Positions 33,206 to 40,711 of a DNA stretch of 44,078 bases are shown in pieces. The notes beneath the pieces are model-generated. The model was given only the letters and a program-made list of their open reading frames with translations, did not search any database and had not been told where the DNA came from. The stretch is taken from assembly GCF_001730525.1 (NCBI RefSeq), contig NZ_MDFN01000038.1, positions 1 through 44,078 of the forward strand, written 5' to 3'. The position numbers and the translations under genes are program-made. The DNA is from Arcticibacter eurypsychrophilus (GTDB taxonomy: Bacteria; Bacteroidota; Bacteroidia; Sphingobacteriales; Sphingobacteriaceae). Position 1 is the first letter of the stretch; each line of letters begins with the position of its first letter.

Positions 33206-34078
33206 TTAGCCGAAAAGATCTGTACTCAAATAACGGTCACCACGATCGCAAGCAATAAAAACAATTAAGCCCTTTTCAATTGTTTCCGCAACCTTTAACG
33301 CTGCAAATGCGGCTCCTCCCGAACTCATCCCTGCAAGGATTCCTTCCACTCTAGCCAGTTTACGGGTCATGTCTGTGGCCTCTGCCTGTGAAATATCAAT
33401 AATGTGATCTACTCTTGAGGCATCAAATATTTTGGGCAGATAAGCTGCAGGCCATCTTCGTATTCCGGGAATGGAGGAGTTTTCTGTAGGCTGACATCCA
33501 ATAATCTGAATTTCTGGGTTTTGTTCTTTTAAAAACATAGAATTGCCCATGATAGTTCCCGTCGTGCCCATCGAACTTACAAAATGAGTGATGCTCCCGG
33601 CTGTGTCCTTCCATATCTCAGGACCTGTGGTTTTATAATGCGCCAGGTAATTATCCGGATTAGCGAACTGATTCATTAGAAAGTAACCAGGTTCTGCTCC
33701 TTTTTCCTCTGCATAATCCCTGCATAATTCCATACTGTCCATTAATTTCACTTTTGCACCGAATGCCTTCATCGTAACGGTACGTTCCCGGCTGGAATTA
33801 GAAGGCATAATGAGTTCAATCTCCAGACCAAATAAACGGGCCATCATGGCTAATGCGATACCTGTATTGCCACTGGTAGCCTCAATAAGGCGCGTTCCCG
33901 GTTTGATATCACCACGATCCAGTGCACTTTTAATCATATTCAGCGCTGCCCGATCCTTTACACTTCCACCCGGATTGTTACCCTCGAGCTTCGCAAATAT
34001 TTTTACATTTTTATTGGTATTGAGCCTTGTCAGCTCAGCCATCGGGGTATTCCCTACTAAATCAATTATTCCAGCCAT
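33206..34078 (-). CDS. cysM: Cysteine synthase (O-acetylserine sulfhydrylase, CysM type)
   Basis: PLP enzyme making cysteine from O-acetylserine and sulfide, 290 aa. The PLP lysine is K41 (GGSVKDRAA), the substrate loop TSGNTG lies at 68-73, and the phosphate loop SMGTTGTIMG follows. The short length and GNNPGGS before the lysine fit CysM better than CysK. It lies 5 bp after cysE and is the last gene of the kaiC-kaiB-kinase-cysE-cysM operon. Confidence 0.93.
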   Translation of the reverse strand: MAGIIDLVGNTPMAELTRLNTNKNVKIFAKLEGNNPGGSVKDRAALNMIKSALDRGDIKPGTRLIEATSGNTGIALAMMARLFGLEIELIMPSNSSRERTVTMKAFGAKVKLMDSMELCRDYAEEKGAEPGYFLMNQFANPDNYLAHYKTTGPEIWKDTAGSITHFVSSMGTTGTIMGNSMFLKEQNPEIQIIGCQPTENSSIPGIRRWPAAYLPKIFDASRVDHIIDISQAEATDMTRKLARVEGILAGMSSGGAAFAALKVAETIEKGLIVFIACDRGDRYLSTDLFG

Positions 34079-34083
34079 TAAAA

Positions 34084-34890
34084 TTAAAGCTTACGTTCAA
34101 CAACTTTGAACTGTGTTTCATGATATACCACTGATCCCGGTGGCACACTTTTCGTTAACCAAACGTTTCCGCCTATGATACTGTTTTTACCAATTATCGT
34201 ATCGCCACCCAAAATGGTAGCTCCGGAGTAAATAACAACATGATCTTTTACCGTAGGATGTCTTTTTTTAGATGCCATTGTTTTTTCGACACTCAAAGCG
34301 CCCAATGTCACTCCCTGGTAGAGTTTAACGTGGCATCCGATCTCGGAAGTTTCACCGATTACGATCCCTGTTCCATGGTCAATGTACAAATACTCGCCAA
34401 TAGTCGCCCCCGGATGAATGTCGATCCCTGTTTTAGAATGCGCAAACTCTGTCAATATACGGGGCAACAAAGGAACATCTAACTTTAATAAGGCATGGGC
34501 AATCCTGAAAAATGAAATAGCATAAAACCCCGGATAAGCCCTGATGATTTCAAATTCAGTTTTAGCAGCCGGATCGCCACTCAGTATGGAGCTAATATCG
34601 GTGTTTAAGATCCGGTATAATTCCGGAACTTGATTAAAAAACTCCCTTGCCGTCTGCTCATTATTACAATCTTCACAGGCCCGTGTAGAGTCCATTATTT
34701 CTTTCAGCTTGATTTCCAGAGCTTTTACCTCAACCTCAATGTCGTGTATGGAGTAAAAAAAACTTTTAGACTGTTCCGGATACAAAATCCTGATCAAACC
34801 TAATGCCCAACCTGCTATCTCTTTATTCGAAGGAACAGCCTCCGTCTTTTGATGTTTTGTAAAAATATATTCGTAAAATTCTTTATTCAT
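34084..34890 (-). CDS. cysE: Serine O-acetyltransferase (EpsC/CysE type)
   Basis: Makes O-acetylserine from serine and acetyl-CoA, the step before CysM, 268 aa. A helical N-terminal domain is followed by a left-handed beta helix of hexapeptide repeats from about residue 156. The likely catalytic pair is D157 (TGIDIHPGA) and H172 (YIDHGTG). The start codon lies inside the last codons of the histidine kinase gene (8-base overlap), so the two must share a transcript. Confidence 0.93.
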   Translation of the reverse strand: MNKEFYEYIFTKHQKTEAVPSNKEIAGWALGLIRILYPEQSKSFFYSIHDIEVEVKALEIKLKEIMDSTRACEDCNNEQTAREFFNQVPELYRILNTDISSILSGDPAAKTEFEIIRAYPGFYAISFFRIAHALLKLDVPLLPRILTEFAHSKTGIDIHPGATIGEYLYIDHGTGIVIGETSEIGCHVKLYQGVTLGALSVEKTMASKKRHPTVKDHVVIYSGATILGGDTIIGKNSIIGGNVWLTKSVPPGSVVYHETQFKVVERKL

Positions 34891-36544
34891 GGATAGGTAA
34901 AATAAAATAGAACGTAGAGCCTTTATTTAGTTTGCTCATAACCCCGATCTTTCCATTATGGGCTTTAATGATTTCTGATGATATATATAAGCCAATACCT
35001 AAGCCGCTTGTAGAATAGGTATTATCCTCCACCCGGTAGAAACGTTCGAATATACGTTCTTTCTGATGATCTGACAATCCAATTCCAAAGTCTTTAATCG
35101 AAACCTTTACCTCTGTTTCGGTCACTTCAGTTTCAATATCAATTTCTTTGTTTACAGGAGAATATTTTACTGCGTTACTGATTAAATTCATCATTACCTG
35201 TTCGAGCCTTTCCATATTGCCTGTAACTATGCCATTTTTTTTTCCATGTACTGAAATAATATAATTGGGATACATGAATTGAGCACTTTCGATGCATAGT
35301 TGAATCAAGTCCGAAACGTTCAGCAACGACGTGTTAAACTCCAGTTTTCCCATCTGAATTTTACTTACATCCAGCAGGTCGTTAACCAGATTGGCCAACT
35401 TTCCGATCGCTTCATTCGCTTTGCCTGCAAATTGTTTAATAATTGGAGGCAATTCATTTTGTTTATAAGCACTGATCAGCTGCATATAACCCTTCAAACT
35501 CGTGAGAGGGGTTTTTAACTCATGACTAGCTATTCCAATAAACTCATCCTTTTTAGCCAGAGCTTGTTTTTGTTCCTCAATATTGGTCATGGTGCCAAAC
35601 CAGGCTATGATACGGGAATTTTCATCAAAAAAGGGGATAGCTTTGGTCAGATGCCATAAATATTCACCTGAATCTATTTTCCTTATTCGGCACATTGTTT
35701 CCAGAGGCATGCTGGTAGCTAAAGCAGCTTGCCATGACTCCATGCTCGCCTTAATATCATGGAGATGGACTACCTTCATCCATCCGTCATTCTTAGAGTC
35801 ATCCACACTTAGACCGGTATAGTCAAGCCACTGCTGATTGAAGTAGTCGAATTTTCCATCCCGATCAGCTGTCCATACCATGACCGGAATGTTATCCGCT
35901 AAAAACTTAAAATTACGCTGACTGATTAAAAGATCCCGGGTCTTTTCTTTCACTGTATCCTTCAGTTCTTTATTCAGTTTCGCGGTAATGTACTGAGCCT
36001 TTTCCAGCTCGATGTTTTTAGCTTTTAATTGATTTTCGGTCTCTATTATTAAAGAGAGGTCTGTTAAAATGATGCTAATCACTTCGCCTTTATCAAATTC
36101 CAGTTTTGTTAAGGATAAAAGAAAAGGAATCCGCTCAAAGTTTTTTCCCATAAGGTACAGATCGTCTTTGATATTTTCCCTCCATCCCTTATTCAATAAT
36201 CTTCTGAAAGCCGCTTTGAACTCGTCAGGAACGAAGTTTTCAAAAGGAACCCCGATAACATGCTCTAGGGGAAAATTCAATAGGGAAGCAAAACGGGAAT
36301 TGCTGTATAAAATTACCCCGTTGCTATCCAGCGTTAAAGCTCCCTGGGTCATATTTTCAACAATCACCCTGTAGTTGCGATCAGCATTTTTTAATGTGTA
36401 TAGCTGATGCCCATTTTTGTTCGGAACAACAAGAGCATCGATTTCTCCATTAAAAATGGCGTCAATTGTATTTTGCGTTTCATTGAGCTTTGCTCTTAAC
36501 TCATAAATTATAGCGATGAGTTCCGGCAGCGTTTTCGTTTCCAT
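34883..36544 (-). CDS. PAS-PAS sensor histidine kinase
   Basis: Soluble sensor kinase, 553 aa, with no membrane segment. A short N-terminal coiled coil (about 5-30) is followed by two PAS domains (about 50-170 and 215-335). The HisKA domain has the phosphorylated H341 in SHELKTP, and the HATPase domain has NLISNAVKYSP, DFGIGLS and GLGIGLYIS. It does not carry the KaiB-like sensor domain of cyanobacterial SasA, and no response regulator is encoded in this window. It starts 3 bp after kaiB and overlaps cysE, so it is likely an output or input kinase of the KaiBC module; this is inference from context. Confidence 0.93.
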   Translation of the reverse strand: METKTLPELIAIIYELRAKLNETQNTIDAIFNGEIDALVVPNKNGHQLYTLKNADRNYRVIVENMTQGALTLDSNGVILYSNSRFASLLNFPLEHVIGVPFENFVPDEFKAAFRRLLNKGWRENIKDDLYLMGKNFERIPFLLSLTKLEFDKGEVISIILTDLSLIIETENQLKAKNIELEKAQYITAKLNKELKDTVKEKTRDLLISQRNFKFLADNIPVMVWTADRDGKFDYFNQQWLDYTGLSVDDSKNDGWMKVVHLHDIKASMESWQAALATSMPLETMCRIRKIDSGEYLWHLTKAIPFFDENSRIIAWFGTMTNIEEQKQALAKKDEFIGIASHELKTPLTSLKGYMQLISAYKQNELPPIIKQFAGKANEAIGKLANLVNDLLDVSKIQMGKLEFNTSLLNVSDLIQLCIESAQFMYPNYIISVHGKKNGIVTGNMERLEQVMMNLISNAVKYSPVNKEIDIETEVTETEVKVSIKDFGIGLSDHQKERIFERFYRVEDNTYSTSGLGIGLYISSEIIKAHNGKIGVMSKLNKGSTFYFILPIHE

Positions 36545-36547
36545 AAA

Positions 36548-36859
36548 CTAAATATCTTCATTGATTCCAAGGCCTTTAAGTACTTTTTTTAAGTCGGACA
36601 TGTCACCAACCAATCTGCTCCCAGGTAGCGGGTTTTTCTTGATCAGAAGCGGTAAAGCAATAAGCTGCTCTTCTTTTGCAATAAGGGGCTGCTGGTAAAC
36701 GTCGATAATCTCCAGATTGTATCTGTCTTTAAGATATAATTCACAGACGGACTTGATGTTGGAGATCGCCCTTGCAGAGTTTGCCGAAGCACCTGCAACA
36801 AATAACCGCAATACAAAGTTATTAGGAGATTCAATTTTTTTTACAACTTCTTTCAACAC
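36548..36859 (-). CDS. kaiB: Circadian-clock-type protein KaiB
   Basis: A protein of 103 aa that aligns through most of its length with cyanobacterial KaiB. It has the LRLFVAGASANSARA start, LEIIDVYQQP in the middle, ALPLLIKKNPLPGSR (the proline-rich fold-switch region) and LVGDMSDLKKVLKGL. KaiB binds the ATPase ring of KaiC. The frame starts with GTG at 36859, with AGGAAA 8-9 bases upstream on the minus strand; no ATG is available. It follows kaiC after 116 bp and precedes the histidine kinase by 3 bp. Confidence 0.93.
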   Translation of the reverse strand: MLKEVVKKIESPNNFVLRLFVAGASANSARAISNIKSVCELYLKDRYNLEIIDVYQQPLIAKEEQLIALPLLIKKNPLPGSRLVGDMSDLKKVLKGLGINEDI

Positions 36860-36897
36860 AATATTTCCTGATCAATTTGTATGTATACAGCTTTTAC

Positions 36898-36919
36898 TTC
36901 TTTTTATAATTAAAAAGAA
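36898..36919. repeat. Hairpin in the kaiC-kaiB spacer
   Basis: A perfect 9-bp inverted repeat TTCTTTTTA / TAAAAAGAA with a 4-base loop, inside the 116-bp kaiC-kaiB gap. It has a single G-C pair and is weak. It might lower read-through or guide mRNA processing between kaiC and kaiB, or may be chance in AT-rich DNA. Confidence 0.25.
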
Positions 36920-36975
36920 ATCTAATTTCCAAAAAAATAAGGAAAGCTTCGTTTTTTGTCACATTAAATTCTTTT

Positions 36976-38721
36976 TTATGTTTCAATATTGGGCTCATTA
37001 TCTTCGTTATTTTTTTTAGGCGATGAACCCCTGATATGCGTAATTTCTTTTCTGTTTTTTTCCTGGATATCCCGTGTTAACAGTTCTTCTGTATAGGTAC
37101 GGTTTAATTCTTCTTCTGCAGATTCAAACTTGGCTTTTAAAGTCAAAATTGTGGCATCTAAAATCTGTTTCTTTCTAGAAATTTCACGGTCCTTACGTGT
37201 TTTCTGATAACCCTTCAACACATCCCCTGTAAGTTCCTTTAAGATTTGTGCTTCCCTAGCGGAGCCAGTCAAGACACCATCAGAACCAAGGTACACCTCA
37301 ACTAAATCTAGTCCGTCATCGGTAATGATAAACTCCCTGATTTGGTTCGAGTGTTTCATTCCTCTTGATTTCATCACACAAACCCCTCTATTGCGTTCGC
37401 CGTTAAATTCGATGTCTCGTACCAATAACCAGGCATCTACGAGTGATGATATCACTTCATAGGTTTGTTCTGTCACACTATTATTGATTGTCAAAGCCGT
37501 AAATAGTACAGTAATTTGTTCTTTTTGCAAAAAATCAATCAGCCTGATCAACATGGCTTTTACGTCATTTACAGAACCCACTGTAACCAGATTAGTGATT
37601 GGGTCAATAATTACGGCCTTAGGTTTGATTTCCGAAATCTTTTTATGCATGTCAACTAAATGCATCTCCAGACCGAACATCGTAGGGCGGGAGGTGATGA
37701 TTTCCAACAAATCTGCGTCAATGTGTTTCTGAAGATCCAAACCAATGGATGTCATATTACGAATGAGCTGGTTAGCTGATTCTTCAAAGGAAAAATAAAT
37801 ACATTTTTCACCTTTGTCACATATACTAGAAGCGAAAGTGGCTGCAATATTCGTTTTTCCTGTTCCCGCTGTTCCCGAAATCAAAATACTACTACCACGA
37901 AAAAAACCTTGTCCACCCAGCATGCTATCCAGACCTGTAATTCCTGTAGAAATTCTTTCCGATGAAGCCACGTTATCCATATTGAGGGAGGTGATCGGTA
38001 AAACCGAGATTCCGTCACTATCGATTAAAAAAGGATATTCATTTGTACCATGTGTGGATCCCCGGTATTTTACTATTCGCAATAGACGAGTGGAAATTTT
38101 ATTTATAATCCGGTGATCAAGGAATATTACGCAATCGGAGACATATTCTTCCAACCCTCTACGAGTCAGTAATTTGTCGCCTTTCTCTCCGGTTATAATT
38201 GCTGTAACTCCCTTCTCTTTTAACCATTGGAATAACCGGCGAAGTTCTGCCCTTATAGTGGTTTCATTCGTCAAATCAGAAAACAAGTTTTCAACCGTAT
38301 CCAGCACTACCCGTTTTGCCCCAATTTGATCAATAGCATACCCAAGTCGGATGAATACACCCTCCAGATCATATTGTCCGGTTTCCTCTATCGCATTTGG
38401 GTCGATATACACATAGTCCAGACTTACCTTTTTACTTTCAACCAAAGCGGCCAGATCGAAGCCTAAAGAAGCCACATTCATAATCAACTCCTCCGCTTTC
38501 TCTTCAAAAGCCATAAAAACGCCGGGTTCATCATACTTGGTTGCGCCATTTACGATGAATTCAAGCGACATCAAAGTCTTTCCTGATCCTGTTCCGCCGC
38601 AAATTAAGGTTGGGCGACCTTTAGGCAATCCACCTCCGGTAATATCATCAAGCCCTAAAATTCCGGTTGGTGTTTTAGGGAGCAGACCTAAATTTAACTT
38701 GTTTTTTTCGTTGAAATCCAT
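36976..38721 (-). CDS. kaiC: Circadian-clock-type ATPase KaiC (two RecA domains)
   Basis: Double RecA-like ATPase, 581 aa against 519 in Synechococcus. The first domain (CI) has Walker A G42-G-T-G-S-G-K48-T and the catalytic pair E73-E74. The second (CII) has Walker A G283-T-A-G-T-G-K289-T and E313-E314. The residues matching the S431/T432 autophosphorylation sites are S425-S426 (YEVISSLVDAW), so this is a Ser-Ser form. A charged coiled-coil tail of about 90 residues follows CII and is not part of the Synechococcus layout. KaiC binds KaiB; no kaiA is present here. It is the first gene of the operon. A candidate promoter lies at 38759-38792. Confidence 0.95.
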   Translation of the reverse strand: MDFNEKNKLNLGLLPKTPTGILGLDDITGGGLPKGRPTLICGGTGSGKTLMSLEFIVNGATKYDEPGVFMAFEEKAEELIMNVASLGFDLAALVESKKVSLDYVYIDPNAIEETGQYDLEGVFIRLGYAIDQIGAKRVVLDTVENLFSDLTNETTIRAELRRLFQWLKEKGVTAIITGEKGDKLLTRRGLEEYVSDCVIFLDHRIINKISTRLLRIVKYRGSTHGTNEYPFLIDSDGISVLPITSLNMDNVASSERISTGITGLDSMLGGQGFFRGSSILISGTAGTGKTNIAATFASSICDKGEKCIYFSFEESANQLIRNMTSIGLDLQKHIDADLLEIITSRPTMFGLEMHLVDMHKKISEIKPKAVIIDPITNLVTVGSVNDVKAMLIRLIDFLQKEQITVLFTALTINNSVTEQTYEVISSLVDAWLLVRDIEFNGERNRGVCVMKSRGMKHSNQIREFIITDDGLDLVEVYLGSDGVLTGSAREAQILKELTGDVLKGYQKTRKDREISRKKQILDATILTLKAKFESAEEELNRTYTEELLTRDIQEKNRKEITHIRGSSPKKNNEDNEPNIET

Positions 38722-38880: not shown

Positions 38881-38949
38881 TTTTAAATTATTAAATCCTC
38901 AGAATTTCTGCTTTTAAAGGCTTTATCCTGAGGATTTAATAATTTAAAA
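38881..38949. repeat. 22-bp perfect inverted repeat upstream of kaiC
   Basis: Arms at 38881-38902 and 38928-38949 are exact reverse complements (core AAATCCTCAG / CTGAGGATTT), separated by 25 bases. It lies about 160 bp before kaiC and 90 bp after the Dabb stop. It has no T-run directly after the minus-strand arm that would make it a normal terminator for the Dabb gene. It may be a distant terminator, an operator or a small mobile repeat. Confidence 0.6.
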
Positions 38950-39038: not shown

Positions 39039-39335
39039 TTATTCGGCGTCGTATATCACTATTTTTTCGAAATACATTCTAAACGAATCAAGAAAAGCTA
39101 AATGCAGCGGATGGGTCTGATATACATTATGGCCGGCCAGGTCATCAAAAATAACCGTTAGTGAAAAGGTGTAACTTGAATCTACAACTGCCCTTTCAAT
39201 TGGAGCCGGAGTTCCAATGAAAACTGAATTTGCGGTTTCAACTCTTTTTAATGCTTCAAGACTTTGTTTGAAAGCAACCTTTTGATCAATAGTCATGTCG
39301 GCTTTAAGCCAGAAAAGTACGTGGTGGGTCAGCAT
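39039..39335 (-). CDS. Dabb (stress-responsive A/B barrel) domain protein
   Basis: Small dimeric alpha/beta barrel protein, 98 aa. The pattern MLTHHVLFWLK at the start, the central SYTFSLTVIFDD and the HPLHLAF helix fit the Dabb family, which holds plant stress proteins and some bacterial enzymes of unclear role. A start at 39416 is possible but unlikely: the minus-strand box TATATTTG (39364-39371) lies inside that extension. The function is unknown. Confidence 0.8.
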   Translation of the reverse strand: MLTHHVLFWLKADMTIDQKVAFKQSLEALKRVETANSVFIGTPAPIERAVVDSSYTFSLTVIFDDLAGHNVYQTHPLHLAFLDSFRMYFEKIVIYDAE

Positions 39336-39363
39336 GGGGTTATTTTTGTATGTGATTGAATAG

Positions 39364-39371
39364 CAAATATA
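39364..39371 (-). promoter_or_regulatory. -7 box TATATTTG of the Dabb gene
   Basis: A perfect TAnnTTTG match on the minus strand, 28 bases before the ATG at 39335. A TTG lies 23 bases upstream of it. It fixes the start choice of the Dabb gene. Confidence 0.5.
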
Positions 39372-39739
39372 ACGCGTTGCACCATGCTTGCAGTCAATCT
39401 CTATAAAAAATAACAAAGTAATGATGATACCTGATAGTTAAATGGTCTAGTAAGAATGCAATAAGCCTCTGGAATAAGTCCGGTATTGGGTAGCTAAAGT
39501 CGGACTTACAAGTGATTCTTATTGCTTTTTTAATGCTGAGAATCAGATTCATTTCAGTAGCTATCCTGTATGATTATAGTTTGGGATTTTGGTCAAATTA
39601 GTACATAAGAATCTCTCTTGTAAATCCATACCTTATTTTGGAAATTTTTGCTGTATTAAAGAAGATTTAGGAAGATTTGGTGTTACTTTCACTTCTTAAA
39701 TTTCTATATAGTTTCTTTATGAAAATAAATTTTAATCAT
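39372..39739. other. Spacer between the Dabb and DUF6266-like genes
   Basis: AT-rich and without a convincing coding frame. It contains the nested hairpin with a T-run at 39458-39531. The last 80 bases must hold the promoter of the DUF6266-like gene, but no perfect TAnnTTTG is seen; TATAGTTT near 39706 is only a partial match. Confidence 0.5.
39458..39531 (+). other. Nested double hairpin with T-run (orphan terminator or small RNA end)
   Basis: Outer arms GCAATAAG (39458-39465) and CTTATTGC (39518-39525) and inner arms TAAGTCCG (39475-39482) and CGGACTTA (39501-39508) are both perfect. They are separated by two internal loops of nine bases each. Six T follow directly (39526-39531), as in an intrinsic terminator of a + transcript, yet no + gene ends here. 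Confidence 0.4.
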
Positions 39740-40711
39740 ATGGCAACTATAGATAAAAGAGGAATGCTACACGGAACCGCAGGGTCGGTGATTTACCTTG
39801 AGTGCCGAGGAAAGAACATCATCCAGGGCAAAGCAAGAACATTTAAGCAAACCGAAAAAACAATCAGGAGTGCTACCGAGTTTGGTCTTTCGAGTTCAGC
39901 AGCGGCAGTAATTCGGACTGCATTTGAACCGGCTTATTTTTTTAAGGATGGAACGGCAGCTTATAGGAGTACGCAATTGGTGTACCGTTCGATACTCAAT
40001 AATGTAAGCGGAGAGAAAGGGAAAAGGGATTTGCATGATGGCGACCTTTCTGCGCTTAATGGTTTGGACTTTAATGCGAACAGTAAACTGCATGAAGTGC
40101 TGCAGATGAGCCACTCGGTTGGTAGAAACGCAGCAGGTTTGGTGAGCGTTACGTTAGGTTCATTGAACACTAAAACAGAGATCAAAAGGCCCAAAGGAGC
40201 AAACGGGGCCTATATGAAGCACCGGATCCGGTTAATGCTTGTGGCTTTTAACTTCAGGGAAGAATATTATGAAAATTTGGGCTTTCAGGATCTTGATCTG
40301 GAAGGATATCAAAACTTCAAAGGACAGGTGATCAACTTTACTGAGTCCGTTCCGGATGGCTGTTTGGCAATGGTAAGCATGTCGCTAATGCTCTACTCCA
40401 CTATTTGTCAAACAGATGAAAGCATTTTGCTGAATAGTGCAGCGTTCAGCCCTTGCGCTATTATTGGTGCTTTTCAATCCGAAAAGCCTTCACAATACCC
40501 GTTGAAAGAGGTTAATATGCAACCATCCGATTATCCTGGCAGGGAAGGAAAGATCACAGTGATGTTTTATAAAGGAAATTTCCTCTTGCTCGGCCTTGAC
40601 TTTCGGTTAGGAACACCAATTGCTGCGAGCGTTAAAGCGGTAAAATCATTGGCAGTAATTCCTGATAATTTGCCAGGAAAGCGAGTTTGGTTTAAGAAAA
40701 CTAAGGAATAG
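39740..40711 (+). CDS. DUF6266-like protein of unknown function
   Basis: A protein of 323 aa. The MATIDKRGMLHGTAGSV start resembles the MATxxKGIxGGFSGKVG start of DUF6266 proteins common in Pedobacter and relatives, but the glycine pattern is looser and the protein longer. No signal peptide or membrane segment is seen; the composition is soluble with many beta strands. I chose the ATG at 39740; an ATG at 39719 would add seven residues. The function is unknown; such genes often occur as strain-specific accessory genes. Confidence 0.6.
   Translation: MATIDKRGMLHGTAGSVIYLECRGKNIIQGKARTFKQTEKTIRSATEFGLSSSAAAVIRTAFEPAYFFKDGTAAYRSTQLVYRSILNNVSGEKGKRDLHDGDLSALNGLDFNANSKLHEVLQMSHSVGRNAAGLVSVTLGSLNTKTEIKRPKGANGAYMKHRIRLMLVAFNFREEYYENLGFQDLDLEGYQNFKGQVINFTESVPDGCLAMVSMSLMLYSTICQTDESILLNSAAFSPCAIIGAFQSEKPSQYPLKEVNMQPSDYPGREGKITVMFYKGNFLLLGLDFRLGTPIAASVKAVKSLAVIPDNLPGKRVWFKKTKE

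Follow-up and report, generated by a model that had tools for sequence, protein, structure and literature searches.

Systems built on KaiB and KaiC homologues have been described in Rhodobacter sphaeroides, where a histidine kinase shares the operon with kaiBC (PMC5520375) and KaiC, which ends in a C-terminal coiled coil, works as a timer driven by the ATP-to-ADP ratio (PMC10076222), and in Legionella pneumophila, where a stress role has been reported for the kai operon that includes the KaiB homologue Lpp1115 (PMC10808063, PMC11372060). Two phosphosite serines are a feature of the R. sphaeroides type of KaiC, called KaiC2 (PMC10076222, PMC5520375), and one Bacteroidetes group encodes only KaiB2/KaiC2-like proteins (PMC5520375). 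Here we analysed a stretch of 44,078 nucleotides of Arcticibacter eurypsychrophilus (contig NZ_MDFN01000038.1, hereafter the window) in which kaiC, kaiB and the gene of a PAS-PAS histidine kinase run on the minus strand into cysE and cysM, the genes of serine O-acetyltransferase and cysteine synthase B (Table 1). We propose, with a probability of roughly 0.7, that a KaiC2-KaiB-kinase cassette was joined once to the cysEM pair in one Arcticibacter clade and that the pair is cotranscribed with it from the kai promoter.

The gene order and strand, first given in an earlier note made from the letters of the window, agreed base for base with the open reading frames (ORFs), and the gaps of 116, 3, -8 and 5 bp listed there were reproduced from the ORF coordinates, the five genes forming one tight same-strand run as the note had it. 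At the junction the kinase stop codon TAA lies within the first codons of cysE (ATGAATAA), which is the 8-base overlap also reported in that note, and this overlap is identical in all three loci that carry the join, namely the window, A. svalbardensis (L032, the same genome as L100) and A. pallidicorallinus (L033, the same as L096). Among 58 cysE loci found by peptide patterns in close relatives, a same-strand ORF of at least 100 amino acids (aa) ends near cysE in 26, and it overlaps the gene only in L032 and L033. Distances and overlap together point to a tight operon that is probably cotranscribed and probably arose once, and with the kinase stop placed within the start of cysE, translational coupling is plausible.

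No intergenic DNA separates cysE from the kinase gene in the joined loci, an arrangement that speaks for read-through from kai. A 39-bp promoter-like site is found in three unlinked congeners at 25 to 39 bp before the cysE start, with 10.2 bits in L034, 29.0 in L036 and 37.8 in G055 (P = 0.010, 0.005 and 0.005 against single-base shuffles), the motif having been built from five seed sites chosen by eye, G055 not among them, and scored by leave-one-out. Strong matches also occur in L048, L089 and L038. For the joined loci the scores are -5.0, -5.5 and -6.6 (P from 0.70 to 0.97), giving the motif in 3/3 unlinked congeners against 0/3 joined genomes; nothing in the joined operons exceeds 7.9 bits, and the best background score of the window is 13.1. 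Most simply, cysE would have lost its own promoter through the join, and because no upstream region of its own is left to cysE, cysEM would probably be transcribed from the kai promoter.

The join is restricted to three of the genomes examined. Our samples held 251 genomes of the family (Sphingobacteriaceae) and 395 of the phylum. A kaiB gene was found in 53 of the family genomes sampled, with kaiC adjoining it in 53/53; a CysE match (E <= 1e-40) was obtained in 39 of these 53 and none in 14, and only 3 of the 39 genomes that have both, all of the window's genus, carry kaiB next to cysE. Of 86 kai loci, three have CysE or CysM nearby, namely the window, L100 and L096; the 86 comprise 56 loci from the 53 kaiB-bearing family genomes, the window included, and 30 from other families that represent 28 of the 34 genomes with kaiB outside the family, the other six not being included; seven of the 86 have no recognisable KaiC. 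Seen from the cysteine side, the family has the same two adjoining genes as the window, cysM directly following cysE in 58/58 related loci, but the pair stands apart from kai in 56 of them, kai being 5' of cysE only in L032 and L033. No title or abstract opening in the literature search links KaiC or kaiBC with cysteine synthase or cysE, be it in Arcticibacter or in a Bacteroidota operon, and it is unusual that the only CysE detected in the window genome stands behind a Kai cassette.

Within Arcticibacter the join is present in three of the six genomes examined, the order from kaiB to cysM recurring in two further species, one of them with a split kinase frame. The other three genomes matched neither kaiB (one of them is 87% complete) nor, at E <= 1e-60, KaiC. 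In these unlinked congeners cydA- and cydB-like genes stand 5' of cysE (Pfam check on L098 alone), and a CydA relative also occurs in the joined genomes, at another place. In these congeners (L097, L098 and L099) a kinase-like gene accompanies the cydA-cydB-like genes ahead of cysEM; after cysEM, on the opposite strand, lies a member of the beta-eliminating lyase family, which we take to be threonine aldolase-like. Because the joined cases are confined to one genus, a single event is most likely, and the join is probably one lineage-specific rearrangement and not a general sulfur clock. An assembly artefact was ruled out since the identical join is found in the records of two other species.

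The earlier note had proposed that the KaiBC state is tied to the making of cysteine, had called for a neighbourhood survey and had named lack of conservation even in close relatives as the outcome that would speak against the linkage. The survey, run on the kai loci, finds the linkage in 3/86, all in one genus, and because the join is kept in three of the six genomes of that genus such a lack of conservation is not what we observe. What stands of that interpretation is the tight operon and its retention in close relatives, with read-through favoured; a general link between KaiBC and sulfur metabolism is not supported, with CysE or CysM near kai in 3/86 loci, kai before cysE in 2/58 and a single genus concerned.

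Analysis of the history of the cassette placed the KaiC proteins of the three joined genomes in one clade with a support of 99, beside G006 (support 82) and then with G011 and G034 in a fork of 85, the tree having been built by a quick method that leaves many open forks. Among the genomes of the CysE survey, it is again G006, G011 and G034 that have the nearest CysE outside the genus. Vertical descent of kai followed by one rearrangement is the likelier reading of this tree, not a firm one. Horizontal gain of kai is not favoured; identity to G179 and G002 speaks for it, though the tree places the clade with G006 and with G011 and G034. The ratios of nonsynonymous to synonymous substitution rates (dN/dS) relative to A. 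svalbardensis were 0.083 for kaiC and 0.125 for kaiB, 0.163 and 0.077 for the N-terminal and C-terminal parts of the kinase gene, which in that species (L032:6348-8008) falls into two frames through a 1-nt slip (1661 versus 1662 nt) that is either real or a draft error, 0.023 for cysE and 0.080 for cysM; relative to A. pallidicorallinus, 8 of 11 gene pieces show a saturated synonymous estimate. Purifying selection acts on the kai genes, even on the two parts of the slipped kinase, and the window copies are open frames. Identity to A. svalbardensis is 78 to 92% for the kai proteins and at least 94% for CysE, CysM and the products of the downstream genes.

The Kai part of the locus is known in kind, of the KaiC2 type. 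KaiC matches PF06745 in two stretches (370 bits, Pfam scan) and PRK09302 with 712 bits (cut-off 408), and its 357 bits on TIGR02655 (circ_KaiC) fall below the cut-off of 546; its closest solved relative is R. sphaeroides KaiC (8dba, 598 bits), the best KaiC of another type reaching 368 bits. The protein has two RecA-like ATPase domains with P-loops at residues 42-49 and 283-290 and catalytic glutamate pairs at E73-E74 and E313-E314, motif roles that in part follow PMC5520375. In the alignment residues S425-S426 fall on the pair formed by SS in 8dba and by EE in 8fwi, giving the two serines of KaiC2, and the key P-loop residues, both glutamate pairs and S425-S426 are invariant across the three Arcticibacter KaiC proteins. 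In the KaiC2 subgroup a C-terminal extension of about 50 residues builds a coiled coil between two hexamers; an extension is present here, the alignment to R. sphaeroides KaiC running to residue 540; a helix at 509-563 appears only in an AlphaFold model of low confidence (3 sequences, mean predicted local distance difference test score 50), and this model and that of KaiB (4 sequences, 56) are too weak to use. No kaiA (PF07688) was found in the window genome at E <= 0.001, the control search being positive in Synechococcus elongatus only; this agrees with the KaiC2 subgroup, whose genomes have no KaiA, and differs from the KaiABC circadian clock, which has KaiA and a self-sustained rhythm. The locus therefore shares with the R. 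sphaeroides KaiBC-kinase set a KaiC2-type KaiC, the serine pair, the C-terminal extension, a KaiB, a histidine kinase in the operon and no detected KaiA; it differs in that its kinase is followed by cysE-cysM and in that the KaiB most like that of R. sphaeroides is missing, only a divergent second KaiB being left.

A KaiBC hourglass timer relies on a KaiB that switches its fold and binds KaiC. The second KaiB, the single kaiB match in the window genome, scores 81 bits on PF07689 (cut-off 27) and remains below the NCBIfam KaiB cut-offs with 70 and 69 bits (cut-offs 110 and 145). It scores R. sphaeroides KaiB and Lpp1115 nearly equally (68.5 and 68.7 bits). The L. pneumophila operon is similar in having KaiB and KaiC homologues and a role reported outside circadian timing, but the best PDB match of the window KaiB is the cyanobacterial-type KaiB 4kso (72.3 bits). 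A. pallidicorallinus has two kaiB genes, the first of which (L033:5719-6021) encodes a protein with 107 bits to R. sphaeroides KaiB and 54 to Lpp1115, and this first gene is missing in the window and in A. svalbardensis. When each KaiB was assigned to the nearer member of the A. pallidicorallinus pair, which for distant families means no more than that, 63 of 77 classified kai loci had both kinds, 12 the first only (10 once and 2 twice) and 2, the window and L100, the second only; the kind could not be assigned for 2 of the 79 loci with KaiC. The family cassette is kaiC-kaiB-kaiB-kinase, with KaiC, the second KaiB and the kinase in the same order as in the window and with the first KaiB that the window lacks. 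Of 18 kai loci whose gene order was compared, 16 carry both kinds, and 15 of these 16 cassettes have no CysE or CysM nearby, A. pallidicorallinus L096 being the exception. Loss of the canonical KaiB in the window and in A. svalbardensis apparently came after the join. In another family genome (G149) locus L180 has a KaiC with a stop inside the match and a first KaiB, followed by neither a second KaiB nor a kinase, and is possibly a broken cassette.

The output kinase of the SasA type carries an N-terminal KaiB-like sensor domain. The window kinase has instead PAS regions at about 57-164 and 212-319, followed by HisKA and HATPase_c, with no match to a KaiB-like or a receiver domain in the Pfam scan, and the NCBIfam model PRK09303 matches only residues 264-552, so that the kinase does not show this feature of the SasA type. 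A single-domain response regulator comes after the kai kinase in L117 and L121, from other families of the class, and in L170, from the same family, and in one further family genome a universal stress protein gene lies 15 bp after the kai kinase (L108:6692-7657).

Regarding the cysteine genes, CysM is above three curated cut-offs (including 470 versus 413 and 400 versus 394 bits), and CysE is above the EpsC serine O-acetyltransferase cut-off (158.5 versus 150 bits) and below that of TIGR01172 cysE (160 versus 211). CysE has a single match in the window genome (E <= 1e-20). Besides cysM, a second member of the cysteine synthase family above cut-off lies elsewhere in that genome, as does a further, weaker relative in an open frame of 465 aa. 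The inverted repeat listed in Table 1 recurs in A. svalbardensis L032; none was found in A. pallidicorallinus, where the stretch is shorter, and no second site in the window genome (E <= 0.001). An ORF of 344 aa on the plus strand (window 39677-40711) has no Pfam or NCBIfam match and is not marked in the corresponding stretches of L096 and L100.

Table 1. Positions of the kai-cys operon and of its neighbouring features in the window.
Feature	Positions	Strand	Product	Remarks
kaiC, KaiC2-type double ATPase with C-terminal extension	36976-38721	minus	581 aa	From ORF list and family scans
116-bp kaiC/kaiB gap	36860-36975			Slot of the first (canonical) kaiB at other loci; A. pallidicorallinus L033 has kaiB there
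kaiB, second-position, more divergent kind	36548-36859	minus	103 aa	GTG start
Histidine kinase, PAS-PAS-HisKA-HATPase_c	34883-36544	minus	553 aa	
Kinase stop/cysE start overlap	34883-34890	minus		8 bases; identical overlap in L032 and L033
cysE, serine O-acetyltransferase	34084-34890	minus	268 aa	
cysM, cysteine synthase B	33206-34078	minus	290 aa	
25-nt inverted repeat	38881-38949			In the Dabb/kaiC interval; candidate terminator or operator
Dabb (A/B barrel) gene 5' of kaiC	39039-39416	minus		In all three joined loci; spacing not tight

Several of these results weigh against the proposed join and read-through. By identity the nearest KaiC proteins outside the genus are those of G179 and G002, and vertical descent of kai is weakly supported, by forks of 82 and 85. 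The genes further downstream are kept as well, so simple synteny may account for the kept adjacency. Loss of the canonical KaiB in the window lineage weakens any reading that requires an intact KaiBC timer, and the kinase frame is split in A. svalbardensis. Regarding transcription, the motif at P <= 0.05 is missing in 41 of 51 other unlinked loci, the remaining 10 reaching it weakly, and its seeds were selected by eye; scans of the operon for promoter and terminator consensus gave counts at the chance level and placed nothing, which leaves room for a promoter inside the kinase gene.

Such an internal promoter would make cysEM a neutral neighbour, its shared transcription with kai being irrelevant, and this we consider unlikely. 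That cysEM adjoins many different upstream neighbours, some of them on the opposite strand, agrees with it, but intergenic DNA is absent, and three species have the kinase stop within the cysE start region; the lack of a strict TANNTTTG box on the minus strand of the kinase gene adds a weak argument, about one being expected by chance. Decay of the cassette, with kai on its way out in the joined clade and cysEM the part in use, seems very improbable: it would account for the lost canonical kaiB, for the slip in the A. svalbardensis kinase and for the greater divergence of the kai proteins compared with CysE, CysM and the downstream products, but kai dN/dS values of 0.08 to 0.16 hold even for the slipped kinase parts, and the window retains open frames together with the key P-loop residues, the EE pairs and both serines.

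It is also conceivable, and in our judgement decidedly unlikely, that kai was recruited so that cysteine synthesis follows energy charge, redox or time of day and that the join is kept for this reason. Join and overlap persist in A. pallidicorallinus at the saturated synonymous divergence noted above, the window genome has one detected CysE and the kai genes are under purifying selection, all of which such coupling would explain; against it stand the confinement to one genus, the conservation of surrounding genes, which means that retention needs no selection, the fact that two of the three joined genomes have lost the canonical KaiB, and the presence of another cysteine synthase. We give still less credence to the more specific proposal that the only detected serine acetyltransferase came under the promoter of a KaiC2 energy-charge timer which, after loss of the canonical KaiB, was rebuilt on the divergent KaiB and the PAS kinase, giving Kai-driven control of cysteine supply, a control of which the literature searched holds no description. 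Single origin, lost KaiB and ordinary synteny around the join argue against a strong claim of Kai timing, and no result here supports a role of the Kai state in timing cysteine synthesis.

Adopting the reading of one join with read-through, a family cassette of KaiC2, KaiB and histidine kinase, probably passed down vertically, would have been placed end to end with an autonomous cysE-cysM pair in an ancestor of one Arcticibacter clade, which is the probable direction of the rearrangement. The join leads directly into the cysE start codon and leaves the gene without an upstream region, with transcription of cysEM probably together with kai and translation perhaps coupled to that of the kinase. 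The Kai part probably functions in the manner of the KaiBC-kinase set of R. sphaeroides, in which KaiC autophosphorylation follows energy charge, and the state of KaiC would be passed through the kinase to a response regulator outside the operon. Because the canonical KaiB is gone, this machine is altered in the window lineage.

For Kai homologues outside cyanobacteria the output is often unclear (PMC11372060). In this regard the joined lineage, in which cysEM is probably carried on the Kai message, and its congeners with cysEM apart provide a natural comparison, in which the expression of cysEM could report what the promoter of the kai cassette responds to. That the canonical KaiB was lost and KaiC is still under purifying selection offers in turn a natural experiment on whether a KaiC2 protein can function with a divergent KaiB alone.

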